Both the position numbers and the translations under genes were made by a program. The notes beneath the pieces were generated by a model. It was not told the origin of the DNA, did no database searches, and saw only the letters and a program-made list of their open reading frames with translations. A DNA stretch of 64,000 nucleotides from contig NZ_JAEHGE010000001.1 of the NCBI RefSeq assembly GCF_016097415.1, positions 459,001 through 523,000 of the forward strand. The letters are read 5' to 3'. This stretch comes from a sulfur-oxidizing endosymbiont of Gigantopelta aegis. GTDB lineage: Bacteria; Pseudomonadota; Gammaproteobacteria; GRL18. Positions 36,540-60,366 of the stretch are shown here, piece by piece (within the stretch, counting starts at the first letter, position 1; the number at the start of each line of letters is the position of its first letter).

Positions 36540-36716
36540 CCTAAAATAATCAGTTGAATCGTAGCGAGAGCGACTTAGGTGCTGAAGGTTAAGGGTTTTA
36601 TAGGTTATTTTGGCTTTATTCGTAGTCACCCTACGGGTGAAGTCAAAATGTTCTGGAAAATCCTTAAGATTCAGTGCATAAGGCGGTCGCAGTAGGTTCA
36701 ACTGATTTTTTTTAGG
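36540..36716. mobile_element. MITE-A copy 1
   Basis: A 177-bp noncoding element, ends CCTAAAATAATCAGTTGAA and its complement, flanked by a TTCAA 5-bp duplication (36535-36539, 36717-36721). The whole unit is an imperfect palindrome centred on CACCCTACGGGTGA. It lies between the 64-residue gene and algR. Confidence 0.9.
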
Positions 36717-51049: not shown

Positions 51050-52402
51050 CTAAACATTATACTCTTTCAATTTACGCCATAGAGTAGATTTGTTCACGCC
51101 CAAGATACTAGCTGTTTTTTCTCGATTATCATTATTTGCATCTAACAGCTTAAAAATATATCGCCGTTCTAGCTCGGCTAAAGTCGGTTGATCGCTATCA
51201 ATCTGCTCACTGGTATCCTGCCCGGGCGCTTGTACTGAAACAGGAATTTCATCCAGATGCAAAAGTTCAGTATCAGACAATGCCACTGCCCGCTCAATAA
51301 TATTACTCAACTCTCGCACATTGCCCGGCCATTGATAGGTTTTCAACAATTGTAAGGATTGTGCATCAAAACCCTCGATAGTGCGCTGGTATTTTTTCGC
51401 AAAACGCTTAAGCATCACGCTAGTCAATAAGGGAATGTCTTCCAGGCGAGTGCGTAAAGGCGGCACCTGAATATTTATCACATTGAGGCGGTGATATAAG
51501 TCATGACGAAACTTGCCTTCCTGCACCATTTTATCCATCGGCTGATTGGTCGCCACGACAAAGCGTACATCAATATCAATCGGCTCTAGCCCTCCGACTC
51601 GAATAATTTGCTGCTCCTGTACTACGCGCAATAATTTGGTCTGCATATTGTCAGAAATATTGCAGATTTCATCGAGAAAGAGTGTCCCGCCTGAAGCGGT
51701 TTCTAAGAGTCCTTTTTTTTGTTTGTTGGCGCCGGTAAAAGCACCTTTTTCATAACCGAACAATTCACTTTGTAGCAAACTATCGGTTAAGGCGCCACAG
51801 TCAATCACAATAAAGGGCTTCTCTGCTGACTGGCTTTGAAAATGAATGGCTCTGGCCACCAATTCTTTACCCGTGCCCGATTCACCTTCAATAATGACAT
51901 TGCAACGAATGTCGGCAATTTTGTCGATGATGTCATACACTTTTTGCATATTGCCACCCGTGCCAATCATGCGATAGCGCTCATCCTGATCCTGCTGGGC
52001 TTTTAATCGCTCTTTCAAGCGTAAGTTTTCTGCCTTAAGAATGGATACATTTAAGGCTTTGCCTATGGTTATTTTCAGCTCTTCAATATCAAAGGGCTTT
52101 TTAACAAAATCGGTTGCCCCCAGACGTAAAACTTCAATCGCATTATCCACATTAGAATACGCAGTGATCACAATGACGGGAATGAGTTTATCCACAGCAC
52201 GAATCTCTGCCAGCACTTGAGCCCCTGTCATATTAGGCATTTGCATATCGGTAATGACCAGATCAACCGGCTCTTTGGCAAAAAAAGTCATCGCCTCCAG
52301 TGGATCAACAAAGATATGACACTCGTAGGTATCATCAAGGTATCGCGCCATCAAGCGCCCGGCTTTTGGCTCATCATCAATAATAATCAGTTTTTGCTTC
52401 AT
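51050..52402 (-). CDS. Sigma-54-dependent response regulator (NtrC family)
   Basis: A 450-residue enhancer-binding protein. Receiver (1-120) with Asp52 in LVITDMQMPN and the Lys of DFVKKPFDIEE; AAA+ domain with Walker A GESGTGKELVARAIH, the sigma-54 loop ELFGYEKGAFTGA, Walker B GGTLFLDEI and the arginine finger region; a Fis-type HTH at the end (ATILGVNKSTLWRKLKEYNV). It activates sigma-54 promoters; the one before soxYZ is the obvious candidate. Its ATG originally overlapped the stop of the upstream kinase gene; MITE-A copy 2 now separates them. Confidence 0.9.
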   Translation of the reverse strand: MKQKLIIIDDEPKAGRLMARYLDDTYECHIFVDPLEAMTFFAKEPVDLVITDMQMPNMTGAQVLAEIRAVDKLIPVIVITAYSNVDNAIEVLRLGATDFVKKPFDIEELKITIGKALNVSILKAENLRLKERLKAQQDQDERYRMIGTGGNMQKVYDIIDKIADIRCNVIIEGESGTGKELVARAIHFQSQSAEKPFIVIDCGALTDSLLQSELFGYEKGAFTGANKQKKGLLETASGGTLFLDEICNISDNMQTKLLRVVQEQQIIRVGGLEPIDIDVRFVVATNQPMDKMVQEGKFRHDLYHRLNVINIQVPPLRTRLEDIPLLTSVMLKRFAKKYQRTIEGFDAQSLQLLKTYQWPGNVRELSNIIERAVALSDTELLHLDEIPVSVQAPGQDTSEQIDSDQPTLAELERRYIFKLLDANNDNREKTASILGVNKSTLWRKLKEYNV

Positions 52403-52459
52403 ACGTCTTTCGTTTTATTTAAGTCTGTTGATGCGTTTGAGGGTGCTATTGTAGATAAT

Positions 52460-52635
52460 CCTAAAAAAATCAGTTGAATCTACTGCGACCGCCTTATGCA
52501 CTGAATCTTAAGGATTTTCCAGAACATTTTGACTTCACCCGTAGGGTGACTACGAATAAAGCCAAAATAACCTGTAAAACCCTTAATCTTCAGCACCTAA
52601 GTCGCTCTCGCTACGATTCAACTGATTATTTTAGG
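52460..52635. mobile_element. MITE-A copy 2, between kinase and regulator genes
   Basis: A 176-bp MITE-A in the orientation opposite to copies 1, 3 and 4, flanked by ATAAT duplications (52455-52459, 52636-52640). It supplies the stop codon of the kinase gene. Removing it with one duplication extends the kinase by 17 residues to a TGA that overlaps the regulator's ATG. Confidence 0.92.
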
Positions 52636-54634
52636 ATAATAATGGCAAACTAATCTTCACCATTACTCCACCACCCTCTGCATTTTCTATGTGTAATTGA
52701 CCTTTATGGTTCTGCACGATACCCAAAGAGATCGACAAACCCAAGCCCGTTCCCTGCCCGACTTCTTTGGTCGTAAAAAAGGGGTCAAAAATTTGATCGA
52801 GAATGCCTGTATCGATTCCAGTGCCATAATCACGTACCGATATGATCATCGTTTCGTTATCCAGGCTTAAGGATAAATCAATTTGTTTCTGCTGTGAACG
52901 CTTATCCTCTGGCAAATCAGCACTGGCCTGTATGGCATTGAGCAAAATATTGACCAGTGCTTGCTGTAATTTACCCTGATCACCCAAAATCATGACTTTA
53001 TCATGCGTCATAATGCCATCAATACCATTGAGTTCAACTTGTGCTCGCTTCGCTTCTTGCTTCACCAGACCTTCGAGGTTTTTCAATAGATCAATCAAAC
53101 AAATGGGTTTGAACTCCTTGTCTGGAATCTGTCTGGAAAAGCTTAATACTCCCTGGACAATTTCAGATGCGCGCAAAACTTCTTCATCCAATGAGCGAAT
53201 ATCTTCCAACATGGTATTCAAAGCCTGAACGAAATTAGTTTCAATAGGGCTGTCTTTTTCTTCTGAGTGAGCAATATTTTTTTCCAGTTCACGATAAATA
53301 AGCCGTGATAAGGAACGAATATTATTCAGCGGATTGTTAATTTCATGACCGATGCCCGCCGCCATCTGCCCCAAACTAGCCAGTTTGGCATTTTGGATCA
53401 TCATGGTTTCTGCCCGAATCCGCTCTTCTAGTGCCTGCTCTAACTTACCGGCCATATAATTAAATGACTCGGATGACTCCTGCATTTCATCAATATCACT
53501 GATAATCGGTACCGCTTTTTTACCATCAGCAAAGGTCTTTAAGTTTTCTGCCAGATGCATAATTGGCGTAGAAATCGCCCGTGAAGCAAAATGTGCCAGA
53601 AACAAACTACTAAATGCTGCCAGGCCTGCCAGAAACCAAATCCCCATACGAATACTTTCAAAGGGCGTACTAAAAGCGGCATCTTCCACTTCGTTTACTA
53701 TCACCCAGGAGGTCAGCGAGTCGGGATAAGGGAAGTATTCAATATAGTAAAAATGTTTATCCCCCTTCATATTGGCCACCGAGCCATAGGCTTGATCCTG
53801 ATACGCATCCCAGATAACGCCTTTATCCAGCGTTTGTAATTTTTCTACTGTGGACTTGAGGTGGGCGAAACGTAAAAAAGTATTATCATCATAGAGTATT
53901 TGCCCATTGCGAACGCTATTTTCTTCATCCACTTCAGCAATCATTAACTTGCCGTCATACAATCGGGCTGCTAATTCCAATACTTGATCAATATTCGCCC
54001 CTTTGATGGCTACCGCCAGATAGCCTACTCGCTGCCCCTCAAAACTTAGGGGCACAACCCCATCAGGGATCACTATGTTATTTTCCTGTCCCATTTCATC
54101 ACGCGTCTGGGGCAGTTCAATAAAGCTCACTTGGCCATCAGGCAATTCAGATAAGAGCTTCACCTGCTCTGGTTGAATGATTTCCTTGTCCATAATGGCG
54201 TATGGCTCAAAGCCTTCATAACGGGTAATGCTCTCATTGCCTGCACGTATTTTTAGCACGGTATTACCCCGTACATCGAGGATTCTAAAAGTATCAAATA
54301 AAGAAATAACGGATTGATATTGCTGTAAGAATTCACTCAGAACAAAGAGTCGAACAGCATATTCTTCATGACGCTCATTTAAACGTGCCTGATTAAGTAC
54401 CGGCATAAACTGCTTCATGGCCTGAGATTCGGGCAATTTGAGAATCAGTCGTTGATCGGTCTGCAAACTGCGGGTGATTTCAATGGCAATGTTTTCTAAA
54501 CTGCGTTGAATATCTTCAGCAGCATCCAAATGGTAGATATTTTGCACATAATAGCTGGCAAACAAGCCCAGAGCCGTCGCCGGTAATAAAGTGGCCAATG
54601 TCACCCAACGAAAGATGTAGGATTTTAGTTTCAC
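52631..54634 (-). CDS. Sensor histidine kinase with large periplasmic (Cache-like) domain, tail cut by MITE-A
   Basis: A 667-residue kinase: helix 1 at about residues 8-28, a periplasmic region of about 300 residues with two Cache-like halves (IRAGNESITRYEGFEPYAIM, GVVPLSFEGQRVGYLAVAIKG), helix 2 at about 330-350, HAMP, His in GQMAAGIGHEINNPLNNIRS, and ATPase motifs (QALVNILLNAIQAS, RDYGTGIDTGILDQIFDPFF, GLGLSISLGIVQNHKG). It is of the NtrB/DctB-like type that pairs with sigma-54 regulators. The final ...LPLLS-stop is formed by MITE-A; the original end was 17 residues longer. Confidence 0.88.
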   Translation of the reverse strand: MKLKSYIFRWVTLATLLPATALGLFASYYVQNIYHLDAAEDIQRSLENIAIEITRSLQTDQRLILKLPESQAMKQFMPVLNQARLNERHEEYAVRLFVLSEFLQQYQSVISLFDTFRILDVRGNTVLKIRAGNESITRYEGFEPYAIMDKEIIQPEQVKLLSELPDGQVSFIELPQTRDEMGQENNIVIPDGVVPLSFEGQRVGYLAVAIKGANIDQVLELAARLYDGKLMIAEVDEENSVRNGQILYDDNTFLRFAHLKSTVEKLQTLDKGVIWDAYQDQAYGSVANMKGDKHFYYIEYFPYPDSLTSWVIVNEVEDAAFSTPFESIRMGIWFLAGLAAFSSLFLAHFASRAISTPIMHLAENLKTFADGKKAVPIISDIDEMQESSESFNYMAGKLEQALEERIRAETMMIQNAKLASLGQMAAGIGHEINNPLNNIRSLSRLIYRELEKNIAHSEEKDSPIETNFVQALNTMLEDIRSLDEEVLRASEIVQGVLSFSRQIPDKEFKPICLIDLLKNLEGLVKQEAKRAQVELNGIDGIMTHDKVMILGDQGKLQQALVNILLNAIQASADLPEDKRSQQKQIDLSLSLDNETMIISVRDYGTGIDTGILDQIFDPFFTTKEVGQGTGLGLSISLGIVQNHKGQLHIENAEGGGVMVKISLPLLS

Positions 54635-54794: not shown

Positions 54795-54970
54795 CCTAAC
54801 TTAATCAGTTGAATCGTAGCGAGAGCGACTTAGGTGCTGAAGATTAAGGGTTTTACAGGTTATTTTGGCTTTATTCGTAGTCACCCTACGGGTGAAGTCA
54901 AAATGTTCTGGAAAATCCTTAAGATTCAGTGCATAAGGCGGTCGCAGTAGATTCAACTGATTATTTTAGG
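54795..54970. mobile_element. MITE-A copy 3
   Basis: A 176-bp MITE-A with ATTAT duplications (54790-54794, 54971-54975), between the kinase gene and the lptM promoter region. Confidence 0.92.
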
Positions 54971-55006
54971 ATTATCCTAACTTAAAATTTGTGTATAATA
55001 GCGCTC

Positions 55007-55400: not shown

Positions 55401-56663
55401 ATGGATTATTTTAACTATCAAGACGGCCAGCTCATGGCTGAAGATAATGTTGTGGCAAAACTGGCACAACATTATGGTACGCCACTTTATATTTATTCTC
55501 GTGCGACCTTCGAACGTCACTGGCATGCCTTTGATGAAGCTCTGGGGGATCAGCCGCACCTGATTTGCTATGCGGTTAAAGCAAACTCCAATTTAGGGGT
55601 GCTCAATATTCTTGCTCGCTTAGGCAGTGGTTTTGACATTGTTTCTCTGGGTGAATTAGAACGCGTGCTAGCCGCTGGCGGCTCACCGGATAAAATCGTT
55701 TTTTCCGGAGTCGGTAAACGCCCCGATGAAATAAAACGCGCTCTGGAAGTCGGTATCCACTGCTTTAATCTTGAATCAGAAGCAGAGATTGAGCGTGTTA
55801 ATGCCGTGGCAGCAGAGATGCAAATGGTCGCTCCTGTTTCGGTGCGTGTTAACCCCGATGTTGATGCCAAAACCCATCCCTATATTTCCACTGGTCTAAA
55901 ATCCAATAAATTTGGTATTGCCATTGAAGATGCCCGTGCTGTATATCAACGCATCAGCCAATTAGATAACCTGAAAATTGTTGGTGTGGATTGTCATATC
56001 GGCTCACAATTATTAGAAATTTCACCCTTTATCGATGCCCTGAAACGCGTCCTGGCACTGGTGGATAACCTGCGTAAAGACGGCATTAAATTACAGCACA
56101 TTGATTTAGGTGGTGGCTTGGGCATTCCTTATAATGATGAACAGCCCCCTTCACCCGCAGAATATGCACAGGCAATTAAAGTGGTCATGGCTGGTCGCTT
56201 GCAGACCATTATTCTTGAACCTGGCCGTGCGATTGCAGGCAATGCAGGAATTTTAGTCACACGTGTTGAATTTCTTAAGCCAAGCAATGATAAAGACGGT
56301 AAAAATTTCGCGATTATCGATGCCGCCATGAATGACTTAATGCGCCCAGCACTGTATCAGTCCTGGCAGGGTATTATCCCCGTACTTGAAGGCGGCAATC
56401 CCGATGCCGACACGATGGTATATGATCTGGTAGGGCCGGTCTGTGAAACAGGTGACTTTTTAGGCAAAGATCGTGCCTTGGCTATCAAGGCTAATGATCT
56501 ACTAGCAGTACGTTCTTCGGGTGCTTATGGTTTCTCAATGAGCTCAAACTATAATTCCCGTCCCCGTGCCGCTGAAGTCATTGTTGATGGAGCAGAACAT
56601 TATCTGGTGCGTGAGCGCGAGTCTATTGTCTCATTGTTTAACTCTGAATCTGTTTTACCCTAG
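55401..56663 (+). CDS. lysA: Diaminopimelate decarboxylase
   Basis: PLP enzyme that makes lysine from meso-diaminopimelate. The 420 residues contain the PLP lysine in ICYAVKANSN, GSGFDIVSLGELERVLAAG, the His in VDCHIGSQL, the LGGGLGIPY glycine loop, the EPGRAIAGNAG phosphate-binding part and the later GPVCETGDFLG with the catalytic Cys. Full length for the family. The stop TAG shares a base with the GTG start of ychJ, so the two are coupled. Confidence 0.95.
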   Translation: MDYFNYQDGQLMAEDNVVAKLAQHYGTPLYIYSRATFERHWHAFDEALGDQPHLICYAVKANSNLGVLNILARLGSGFDIVSLGELERVLAAGGSPDKIVFSGVGKRPDEIKRALEVGIHCFNLESEAEIERVNAVAAEMQMVAPVSVRVNPDVDAKTHPYISTGLKSNKFGIAIEDARAVYQRISQLDNLKIVGVDCHIGSQLLEISPFIDALKRVLALVDNLRKDGIKLQHIDLGGGLGIPYNDEQPPSPAEYAQAIKVVMAGRLQTIILEPGRAIAGNAGILVTRVEFLKPSNDKDGKNFAIIDAAMNDLMRPALYQSWQGIIPVLEGGNPDADTMVYDLVGPVCETGDFLGKDRALAIKANDLLAVRSSGAYGFSMSSNYNSRPRAAEVIVDGAEHYLVRERESIVSLFNSESVLP

Positions 56664-57091
56664 TGGCTCGTTTAGCAAACCCTTCATCCAATAAAGCAAA
56701 CCTAGCGGACTGCCCCTGTCAGTCCGGCTTGCTGTTTCAAAACTGTTGTCAGCCCTTTCTCGACACCACAGCTGAGCACATCCCCGAATCAGCTGAACAG
56801 CTAATGCGTTCACGCTATTGTGCCTATGTGGTTCAGGATGAGAGCTATTTATTAAATACCTGGCACCCAAAAACACGTCCAGCAATACTTGATTTAGACA
56901 CTTCTGTTGATAAATGGATCGGACTGAAAATTCTAGGTTCTGAATTAGGGCAAAAAGCCGATAACACAGGTACAGTGCATTTTATTGCTCGCTTTAAAAG
57001 CAATGGCAAGGCGCATAAACTGGAAGAGAATTCACAGTTTGAGAAAATTGACGGACGTTGGTTTTATCGACAAGCGATTATCCTAAAATAA
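56663..57091 (+). CDS. ychJ: YchJ-family SEC-C zinc-binding protein, C-terminus altered by MITE-A
   Basis: A YchJ/UPF0225 protein of 142 residues with an N-terminal Cys-rich SEC-C motif (CPCQSGLLFQNCC), the family core EQLMRSRYCAYVVQDESYLLNTWHP, and EENSQFEKIDGRWFYRQ at the end. Function is unknown; zinc binding is likely. The start is a GTG overlapping the lysA stop. The last two codons and the TAA come from MITE-A copy 4; without it the protein would end IILSDTF and overlap the convergent urtE gene. Confidence 0.85.
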   Translation: MARLANPSSNKANLADCPCQSGLLFQNCCQPFLDTTAEHIPESAEQLMRSRYCAYVVQDESYLLNTWHPKTRPAILDLDTSVDKWIGLKILGSELGQKADNTGTVHFIARFKSNGKAHKLEENSQFEKIDGRWFYRQAIILK

Positions 57092-57257
57092 TCAGTTGAA
57101 TCGTAGCGAGAGCGACTTAGGTGCTGAAGATTAAGGGTTTTACAGGTTATTTTGGCTTTATTCGTAGTCACCCTACGGGTGAAGTCAAAATGCTCTGGAA
57201 AATCCTTAAGATTCAGTGCATAAGGCAGTCACAGTAGGTTCAACTGATTTTTTTAGG
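57082..57257. mobile_element. MITE-A copy 4, between ychJ and urtE
   Basis: A 176-bp MITE-A with ATTAT duplications (57077-57081, 57258-57262). It lies exactly at the two convergent gene ends: it supplies the ychJ stop, and the urtE TAA (57259-57261) lies within the duplicated target. Confidence 0.92.
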
Positions 57258-57258
57258 A

Positions 57259-57417
57259 TTATACTGTCAGATACTTTTTAACCAGTTCATCATCCAGAGT
57301 ATCCATTACACCGGTGGCCACTTTTCTGCCTCTTTCCATAATGATAAAGTCTTTACCCACACGACGGGCAAATGGTAATTTTTGTTCCACCATAACGACG
57401 GTGATATTCGCTTCTTC
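57259..57417 (-). pseudogene. urtE: Urea ABC transporter ATPase UrtE, C-terminal fragment
   Basis: End of UrtE: NITVVMVEQKLPFARRVGKD to DDELVKKYLTV and TAA. The conserved His of the H-loop is replaced by Gln-Lys (VVMVEQKL), as is common in LivF/UrtE-type ATPases. Joins in frame to 59816-60366 (LNEEANITVV) once IS66-I copy 3 and one GCTTCTTC are removed. Confidence 0.9.
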
Positions 57418-57500
57418 GTAAACGTCAATTAAAACCCACGTTCACAATAAGCTTCAGTTAGCTCAAACTATGATCTTCAATTCGTAATTTGGAGATACAA

Positions 57501-57824
57501 ATGAGCAACCATTCAAAAGATGCTTCGATGAAGCAACACATAGAGGCCTGCCAAGCCAGTAACTTAAGCCAGGCAGTTTATTGTCAACAACATAAGATAC
57601 CCTCTCATATTTTTAGCTATTATCGAAAGAAGTTGGGTTATGTTAGCTCATCAAAACAGGTCAACACCAACAATCAACTCATTCCCATTAATTTACTGGC
57701 CAATTCCCCCACAAGCAATGCAATTAAAGTAAGCCATACCAATGGTTTCAGTTTGGAAATCAATTCTGATACGAACCTGAATCAGCTCAAGTCCATTCTG
57801 GATTTGCTCAGGACTGTTTCATGA
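57501..57824 (+). CDS. tnpA: IS66-I copy 3 TnpA
   Basis: Intact TnpA (MSNHSKDASM... to LLRTVS), same protein as in copy 2. ATG at 57501 after GGAGATACAA; the TGA overlaps the tnpB ATG. Confidence 0.86.
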   Translation: MSNHSKDASMKQHIEACQASNLSQAVYCQQHKIPSHIFSYYRKKLGYVSSSKQVNTNNQLIPINLLANSPTSNAIKVSHTNGFSLEINSDTNLNQLKSILDLLRTVS

Positions 57825-58177
57825 TAACGGGCATCACAGTCAATCAGGTTTATCTGGTTTCTGGTGTTACCGATATGAGAAAAGCAACCAATGGGCTATC
57901 ACTGATTGTCTCAGAGCAATTGGAACACAATCCCTTTGATGGCAGTGTCTTTGTTTTTTGTAATCGTCAGCGAGATAAACTTAAAATACTGTACTGGGAG
58001 CGTAATGGTTTCTGGCTTTACTATCGTACACTTGAAAAAGGGAAATTCCAGTGGCCGATGGAAAAAGAACAACCCACTCTTTCGTTAACACTGAGAGAAT
58101 TACAGTGGTTACTGGATGGTTTATCTTGCACACAACACCATGCTCACCCTGAAATTCATGGTCTGGAAAACAACTAA
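57821..58177 (+). CDS. tnpB: IS66-I copy 3 TnpB
   Basis: The only intact TnpB of this family here, 118 residues, IS66 Orf2 type: [51 protein letters not shown]. The six-T run at 57953 is the reference for the frameshifts in the other two copies. Confidence 0.88.
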   Translation: MITGITVNQVYLVSGVTDMRKATNGLSLIVSEQLEHNPFDGSVFVFCNRQRDKLKILYWERNGFWLYYRTLEKGKFQWPMEKEQPTLSLTLRELQWLLDGLSCTQHHAHPEIHGLENN

Positions 58178-58251
58178 AAAAGTCCCTTTAGATGCGCATT
58201 AAACAGAATAAATACAAGCATTTAACGCTCATTTTTAGTATAATATAACGC

Positions 58252-59785
58252 ATGAGTTCAACAGACAAAATACTACCAGAAGAGATACCAACGCTCAAAA
58301 ACAGGGTGCTTGAACTCCAGTCAAAAGTGGACTGGTATGAGGAACAATTTCGTCTGTTGCAACACAAACGGTTTGGTACTTCCAGTGAAAAAAAAGAAGC
58401 CCACCCCGACTTCTTTAATGAGGCAGAAACGTTCGCCGAAGAAGCACCGGAAGTCCGTGAAACCATTACTTATGAGCGTAAAAAGCCCGGTCGTAAGCCT
58501 TTACCTAAAGACCTACCTCGTAAAGTTGTTCGTCATGAGTTATCTGAAGCAGAACAAGTCTGTGACTGCGGTCATCACTTGCATGAAATTGGTGAAGAGA
58601 CCTCAGAGCAACTGGAAATTGTTCCTGCTCAGGTATATGTTGTAGAACATGTTCAGGTTAAATATGCCTGTCGTGCTTGTGAGGAAGGCGTTAAAACTGC
58701 TCCTAAGCCTGCACAGCCCATTCCTAGAAGTTTTGCATCACCCAGCCTGCTGGCCTATATCATTGTTTCTAAATTCCTAGACAGCTTGCCTCTCTATCGA
58801 CAGGAAGCGATATTTAAACGCTATAAGATAACACTTTCCAGAGCCAGTATGTCCAACTGGGTGCTTAAATCAGCTGAATTACTCAAACCCTTTTATAATC
58901 GGTTGTTGTATTATCTCATTAGGCAGAAAATCATCCAGGCCGATGAAACAACGATGCGAGTGATCCATGATGGACGTGAGAATTGCCCTAAATCTTATAT
59001 GTGGCTCTATCAAAGTGGCGGCTATCATTCCAAGTGTCCCATTGTTTTGTATGAGTATCAGCCTACTCGTGCAGGCCAACATGCCAAAACCTTTTTAACG
59101 GGGTTTTCAGGTTACCTGCAAACGGATGGCTTTCCCGGTTATCATATATTCGAAAATGAGAACAGTGAAGTCACTTTATTAGGCTGCATGGCACATGCTC
59201 GTCGCAAGTTCCATGATGCCTTAAAAGCATTACCCAAGAACAGTCAGAAAAAGCCTGGCATGGTACAAATGGCGATCAGTAAAATTGCTAAATTGTATGC
59301 GATTGAAAAACAAATCAAACCGCTCAATGCTGAACAACGTTACCTGATCCGTCAGGAAAAAAAGCAAACCACTACTGGATGACTTTAAAAAGTGGTGTGA
59401 TGATAAAGTGACTAAAACAACAAAAGACAGTAAGTTGGGTGTCGCTATTCGTTATGTGATCAATCAATGGAAGTATCTGACTGTCTATCTTGAAGAGGGC
59501 AACCTCCAGATTGATAATAATATGGCAGAGCGGCGGATCAAACCCTTTGTGATTGGGCGCAAAAACTGGGTCATGAACCAAAATCCTCGTGGTGCTGAGG
59601 CCAGTGCTATTTTATATTCAATCGTGCAAACAGCGAAAGCAAACAACCTAGAGCCCTTTGCCTTTTTAACACACATTCTGACTGAGTTACCTAAGCTGGG
59701 CAGGCATTATGATGATGAGGCTTTAGAGCAATTGTTGCCATGGAATTTGACTGAAAAAATTCAGCCTTTAAATAAAGTGGAATGA
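58252..59785 (+). pseudogene. tnpC: IS66-I copy 3 TnpC transposase (one frameshift)
   Basis: Complete N-terminus from the ATG at 58252 (MSSTDKILPEEIPTLKNRVL), zinc-binding CDCGHHLH, catalytic QADETTMRV and LQTDGFPGYH, open to 59382. One extra A in the run at about 59358 shifts the last third (NNMAERRIKPFVIGRKNW, open again 59408-59785). Copy 2 has the correct run and reads through. Confidence 0.85.
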
Positions 59786-59815
59786 TACGTCAACGTGGGA
59801 AGTTTTGACGTATAC

Positions 59816-60366
59816 GCTTCTTCATTGAGCTTGATGATAATATCACCAATTTCCTGAACCACATTGGGCTGAATGCCTTCCGTGGGTTCATCCAATAATA
59901 GAATTTTGGGCTCCAAAGCCAGCGCTCGACCAATAGCCAATTGCTGCTGTTGCCCACCCGACAAATCACCACCGCGACGTTTGATCATTTGTTTTAATAC
60001 CGGAAATAATTCAAATATTTTTTCCGGTAGTTCTTTGCACTTGTCTTTACGTGCAATCAGCCCTGTTTGCAAATTTTCCAGCACCGTGAGCTGAGAAAAT
60101 ATTTCCCGTCCCTGTGGCACATAGCCGATCCCTGACTGGGCTCGAACAGAAGCACTTTTGTCTTGTAGTGACTGATCTTCAAAGGTGATCTGACCACTAC
60201 GAATGGATAATAGACCCATAATTGATTTCAATAAAGTGGTTTTACCCACACCATTACGTCCCATCAGACAAACGCAACTGCCTTGTTTGATCTCAATATC
60301 TAAATCCCAGAGAATATGACTCTCACCATAGAATTGATTGAGTGATTGTGTACTGAGTATATTCAT
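59816..60366 (-). pseudogene. urtE: Urea ABC transporter ATPase UrtE, N-terminal fragment
   Basis: First 183 codons of UrtE with Walker A GRNGVGKTTLLKSIMG, Q-loop YVPQGREIF, signature LSGGQQQQLAIGRALA and Walker B ILLLDEPTEGIQP. It is cut after KLNEEA by IS66-I copy 3, after which a few IS-derived codons lead to a stop. All ATP-binding motifs are on this piece, so partial function cannot be fully excluded. Its ATG overlaps the urtD stop by four bases. Confidence 0.9.

Follow-up and report, generated by a model that had tools for sequence, protein, structure and literature searches.

Target motif and purging of deeper insertions as the probable basis of the 3'-end placement of MITE-A, a hairpin element of a gammaproteobacterium

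Copy 4 of the short element MITE-A lies at the junction of the convergent genes ychJ and urtE and supplies ychJ with a new stop codon, which raises the question of why insertions of this element survive at gene ends. The first-pass annotation proposed that the element carries stops in all three frames at its end, which would make insertions near stop codons nearly neutral. The junction is considered here within the window, i.e., the whole stretch of 64,000 nucleotides analysed (bases 459001-523000 of contig C1), and within the home genome of 4.91 Mb in 11 contigs. Coordinates without a contig or locus name refer to the window.

Copy 4 occupies positions 57082-57257 on the plus strand (176 bp, ends CCTAAAATAATCAGTTGAA / TTCAACTGATTTTTTTAGG), forms a single end-to-end hairpin, and is flanked by two copies of a 5-bp target-site duplication (TSD), ATTAT, at 57077-57081 on the left and 57258-57262 on the right. 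In the empty site reconstructed by joining the flanks, the ychJ frame is 145 aa long, ends in ...RQAIILSDTF, and overlaps the urtE frame by 23 bp, in agreement with the earlier reading. Today ychJ (56663-57091, plus strand; SEC-C motif, PF17775 middle domain at residues 43-137) has its last codons changed by MITE-A and encodes 142 aa ending in ...RQAIILK. Its new stop TAA is located at 57089-57091, at offset 7 into the left end of the element, and according to the coordinates the two frames are now 167 bp apart, which bears out the claim that the insertion replaces the tail with IILK and a TAA and parts the genes. Since the minus-strand TAA that ends urtE (57259-57261) is part of the right TSD, MITE-A leaves urtE unaltered. 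What is present of urtE here, however, is a 50-residue C-terminal remnant (57259-57411, minus strand; best match TIGR03410), severed from the N-terminal part at 59761-60366 by an IS66-type element (approximately 57412-59760). Because the gene is split in this way, the urea transporter ATPase gene is probably broken.

Among the genus mates that were compared, ychJ is conserved to about residue 135, beyond which the tails differ (VKGDFSQ, VTGTFSK, LG, LNGY, VKGDISENVLNSGNTKKR, and others); downstream of ychJ, the stretches examined yielded no urtE end. The tail that MITE-A removed had therefore probably arisen as a by-product when an earlier rearrangement placed ychJ against urtE. Judging from the sequence comparison, the tail was probably already unlike those of relatives before MITE-A inserted, and the new end supplied by the element is probably harmless.

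Across the home genome, the MITE-A core motif has 79 matches, and 54 of the 67 copies with paired ends are exactly 176 bp long. The element has the features of a MITE, being short, multi-copy, and too short for a transposase gene, with terminal inverted repeats (19 bp) and a TSD. A 5-bp TSD matching at at least 4 positions is found at 72 distinct sites; these comprise the TSD-matching ones (4 or 5 positions) among 89 element pieces in the fetched stretches, plus four manual additions, namely two interrupted copies and two derivatives of 37 bp. Derivatives of 37 and 104 bp with intact TSDs (G000 C1:783385, C1:2185635, and C1:3640669) represent internal deletions of the hairpin. Two copies, at G000 C6:29290 and C1:4051599, have flanks identical at 119 of 120 bases, reflecting either a duplicated region or assembly redundancy, so that this pair is possibly a single event among the 72 sites.

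The window holds three further copies. Copy 1 (36540-36716, plus strand, TSD TTCAA) lies between convergent genes, and copy 3 (54795-54970, plus strand, TSD ATTAT) is intergenic. The right flank of copy 3 (54971-54990, ATTATCCTAACTTAAAA) repeats the left end of MITE-A, as if the copy stood beside the remnant of another end. Copy 2 (52460-52635, minus strand, TSD ATAAT) provides the stop of a sensor histidine kinase gene (52631-54634, minus strand), whose stop codon at 52631-52633 is inside the element; the old frame was 17 codons longer and overlapped the next gene. In the region 52402-52640, copy 2 parts the kinase gene from that neighbour (the overlap in the reconstructed empty site is 4 bp), and the insertion may have altered their translational coupling. 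Two of the four copies in the window, namely 2 and 4, thus do supply stops, as had been noted, but they do not sit exactly at gene ends, since their cuts fall 19 and 6 codons short of the old stops, respectively.

Regarding the origin of the element, the matching ends and target suggest an IS1380-type parent. IS1380-type elements of the home and related genomes have CCTA...ATCAGTT ends and WTNAW duplications, i.e., both the CCTA ends and the AT-rich 5-bp TSD expected of the family. Home-genome fragments of an IS1380-type transposase (PF13701) are located on C1 at about 879-880 kb and 3492.7-3493.8 kb, both copies being disrupted; these elements end in CCTATAAAAATCAGTTAAA and CCTAAAAACCGCAGTAG, have the TSDs TTTAA and ATAAA, and closely match MITE-A at their left end. 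Their ends also read CCTATAAAAATCAGTTAAA / CCTAAAAACCGCAGT..., and at locus L268 the TSD is TTAAT. A search of the home genome for an intact IS1380 transposase returned these two broken copies and remnants only, while the relative G009 has an open 522-aa IS1380-type transposase. The ORF at locus L267 scores 69 bits against PF13701, above the cut-off of 34.7; its best NCBIfam match is NF033539 (IS1380) with 122.7 bits, so that the presumed parent transposase falls below the family cut-off of 180. MITE-A resembles the IS1380 family in its 5-bp TSD and AT-rich targets, and its presumed parents in turn have CCTA ends and a PF13701 transposase; it differs in having no transposase gene. ISEcp1, a member of this family, makes 5-bp duplications at AT-rich targets (PMC2887853), but its reported target TATGA does not fit WTNAW.

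Three other candidates for larger relatives of MITE-A were rejected. The first, 2082 bp long (L138:7583-9664) and bearing MITE-A ends, was considered as an autonomous parent but is a MITE-A interrupted by an IS66-type element, which sits inside it with an apparent 8-bp duplication. A 385-bp form, considered as a transposase carrier, has extra internal sequence and no transposase. Solo terminal repeats, considered as ends of a larger transposon, are partial copies in the inspected cases, as far as checked.

The TSD fits WTNAW at 71 of the 72 sites, and positions 2 and 4 are T and A, respectively, without exception (72 of 72). As TNA is TAA, TGA, TTA, or TCA, every target holds a stop triplet on one strand. 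WTNAW positions overlap a stop codon in such a way that it is retained 2.9 times as often as random positions do, and 47% of called genes have their stop inside a WTNAW target placed so that the gene-side TSD copy keeps the stop.

A count of copies at gene ends against random placement was run with a target-matched null, namely all other occurrences of the same pentamers within stretches of roughly 20 kb surrounding the individual copies. Genes were called by a home-made hexamer model trained on the same sequence with the MITE-A copies removed. Cuts were classed as C-terminal (within the last 25 codons) or deep (more than 25 codons lost); p-values here and below are uncorrected across several related tests, and sites are treated as independent. 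At the 72 home-genome sites there are no deep cuts (44.8 expected), 12 C-terminal cuts (4.3 expected), and 7 cases with the gene's own stop in the TSD (1.06 expected). Thus, 12 copies supply the stop of a gene; the deepest cut is 22 codons from the gene end, and the other sites are intergenic or at stop codons. The relatives (59 independent sites in seven genomes of two genera) show no deep cuts (42.3 expected), 6 C-terminal cuts (3.6 expected), all 6 within 8 codons of the end (1.3 expected), and 6 stops in the TSD (0.9 expected). Pooled over both sets, none of 131 sites is deeper than 25 codons, where 87 are expected. Against random placement, copies are therefore enriched at 3' gene ends, as the earlier proposal required.

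Purging of deeper insertions, together with a stop-containing target, accounts for most of the 3'-end pattern, and as a whole the explanation that combines a stop-bearing WTNAW target with the loss of damaging insertions is considered highly probable. MITE-A is a non-autonomous 176-bp element with IS1380-like ends that duplicates a 5-bp WTNAW target, and it is presumably moved by an IS1380-type transposase. Selection would remove insertions deep in genes, and C-terminal hits would survive because protein tails are often dispensable, with ychJ as a likely example of a tolerated hit. The stop in the terminal repeat would merely close the frame.

The proposal that the terminal stops themselves make insertions near stop codons neutral assigns them a larger role. 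Three-frame closure does hold for the left end, where the first stops stand at offsets 2, 7, and 15 and where 61 of 70 home-genome copies close all frames within 18 nt, and the new stop lies at most 18 nt from the element edge in 10 of the 12 cut genes, at one of these three offsets. The right end, however, is closed in only 6 of 70 copies, one frame being open to offset 49 in most of them, so the description of the ends was correct for one side only. Two of the 12 cut genes enter this open frame, stop at offset 49, and gain a 16-residue tail, which is exactly the expectation under equal use of the six end-by-frame classes. Moreover, copies in the relatives are mostly closed in no more than two frames per end (the commonest class, 29 of 59, has two frames closed at each end), but the share of sites at gene ends is not detectably different (16/72 in the home genome vs 11/59, Fisher p=0.67). 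Given the open ends in relatives and the use of the open class, three-frame closure does not seem necessary for survival, although 12 cut genes make a small sample. The WTNAW motif matters more than the three-frame stops, and the suggestion that the latter cause survival is unsupported and, in our judgement, quite unlikely.

A different possibility is active targeting of stop codons or 3' ends, beyond WTNAW, by the transposase or its complex, for example at terminator hairpins or where transcription slows. This was assessed within tolerated space, defined as intergenic sequence plus the last 25 codons of genes. In the home genome, 23 of the 72 sites fall within -24 to +10 nt of a stop, compared with 9.6 expected (p=3.5e-5), and 16 compared with 7.0 (p=0.002) fall within 8 codons of the end or have the stop in the TSD. 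When long spacers, in which missed genes may hide, are left out by limiting spacers to 600 bp, these excesses shrink to 23 vs 13.5 (p=0.005) and 16 vs 10.2 (p=0.056), respectively. The wider class of the last 25 codons or stop has no excess in the home genome (18 vs 14.6, p=0.31), and in relatives the identical -24 to +10 test gives 15 vs 11.3 (p=0.23), with nonsignificant excesses at all three gene-call thresholds. In addition, insertions into upstream promoters and ribosome sites are likely counter-selected too, which shifts survivors to 3' ends. A literature search on insertion sequences targeting stop codons yielded nothing pertinent. Since the excess shrinks without long spacers and is nonsignificant in relatives, attraction to stops is taken as unproven, and we regard it as very unlikely. 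What enrichment is left relative to other tolerated sites is weak and varies with the gene caller; selection and motif alone do not fully account for the home-genome excess of 23 vs 13.5.

The hairpin itself offers another reason for copies to be kept at 3' ends, namely that it serves the upstream gene as a terminator or as a stabiliser of the mRNA 3' end. It is very stable (MFE -84.6 kcal/mol, z -12.6) and carries a one-strand, RNA-type G-U signature. The folding energy of the home-genome consensus is -90.3 kcal/mol for the plus strand and -56.1 for the minus strand, and across relatives 17 of 71 hairpin pairs have changes on both sides, above any of 500 shuffles. Among register pairs of the family alignment (A2), G-U predominates on the plus strand in 13 columns and A-C in no column (199 vs 7 cells). 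Single changes among home-genome copies, in contrast, are symmetric (16 G-U vs 16 A-C alleles), which argues against plain mutation bias. These observations suggest a constraint on source copies that acts on plus-strand RNA or, with lower probability, on single-stranded DNA. On a tentative reading, somewhat doubtful as it stands, MITE-A would be a mobile RNA hairpin, with selection on its source copies acting on how one transcribed strand folds; its RNA might be processed or might act as a 3' mRNA element of attached genes. An Rfam search of the window gave no match. However, a benefit to neighbouring genes is not demonstrated, since orientation relative to the gene read into MITE-A has no significant preference (25 same, 17 opposite; also 27:23 and 11:10), and a simple scan that allows short loops only found no terminator-like match. 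Retention of copies for such a benefit is therefore considered unlikely.

With the preferred explanation, by target motif and purging, an anecdote of MITEs at gene ends becomes a numerical statement with a target-matched null across eight genomes, and nearly all of the pattern can arise without any special stop cassettes in the element. MITE-A insertions can also be read as a gauge of how many C-terminal residues natural proteins can spare.

In comparison with known systems, Correia/NEMIS, RUP, YPAL, and ERIC are likewise short and multi-copy, with terminal repeats, stable hairpin transcripts, and mostly intergenic positions (PMC2229807), and NEMIS (155 bp) and RUP carry stops in all frames (PMC2229807). 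These families have TA termini according to the table of that review (PMC2229807), whereas MITE-A has CC...GG termini and 5-bp WTNAW TSDs. The closest parallel is offered by QMITE1 and QMITE2 of Coxiella burnetii. In these (BMC Genomics 2018, PMC5896051), every affected functional annotated gene carries the insertion at its 3' end, in several cases the element contributes a stop or a few residues (Table 2), the authors propose C-terminal tolerance, and the parent element is given as not determined. Compared by description, MITE-A is, like the QMITEs in that account, a hairpin MITE of a gammaproteobacterium with gene insertions restricted to 3' ends; unlike them, as described there, its ends are IS1380-like and its target is WTNAW. 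The parts of the paper covered here (PMC5896051) show no test of placement against a target-matched null. Restriction of MITEs to 3' ends is therefore already known in kind from the Coxiella QMITEs, and what is new is the account in terms of a target motif together with the matched null.
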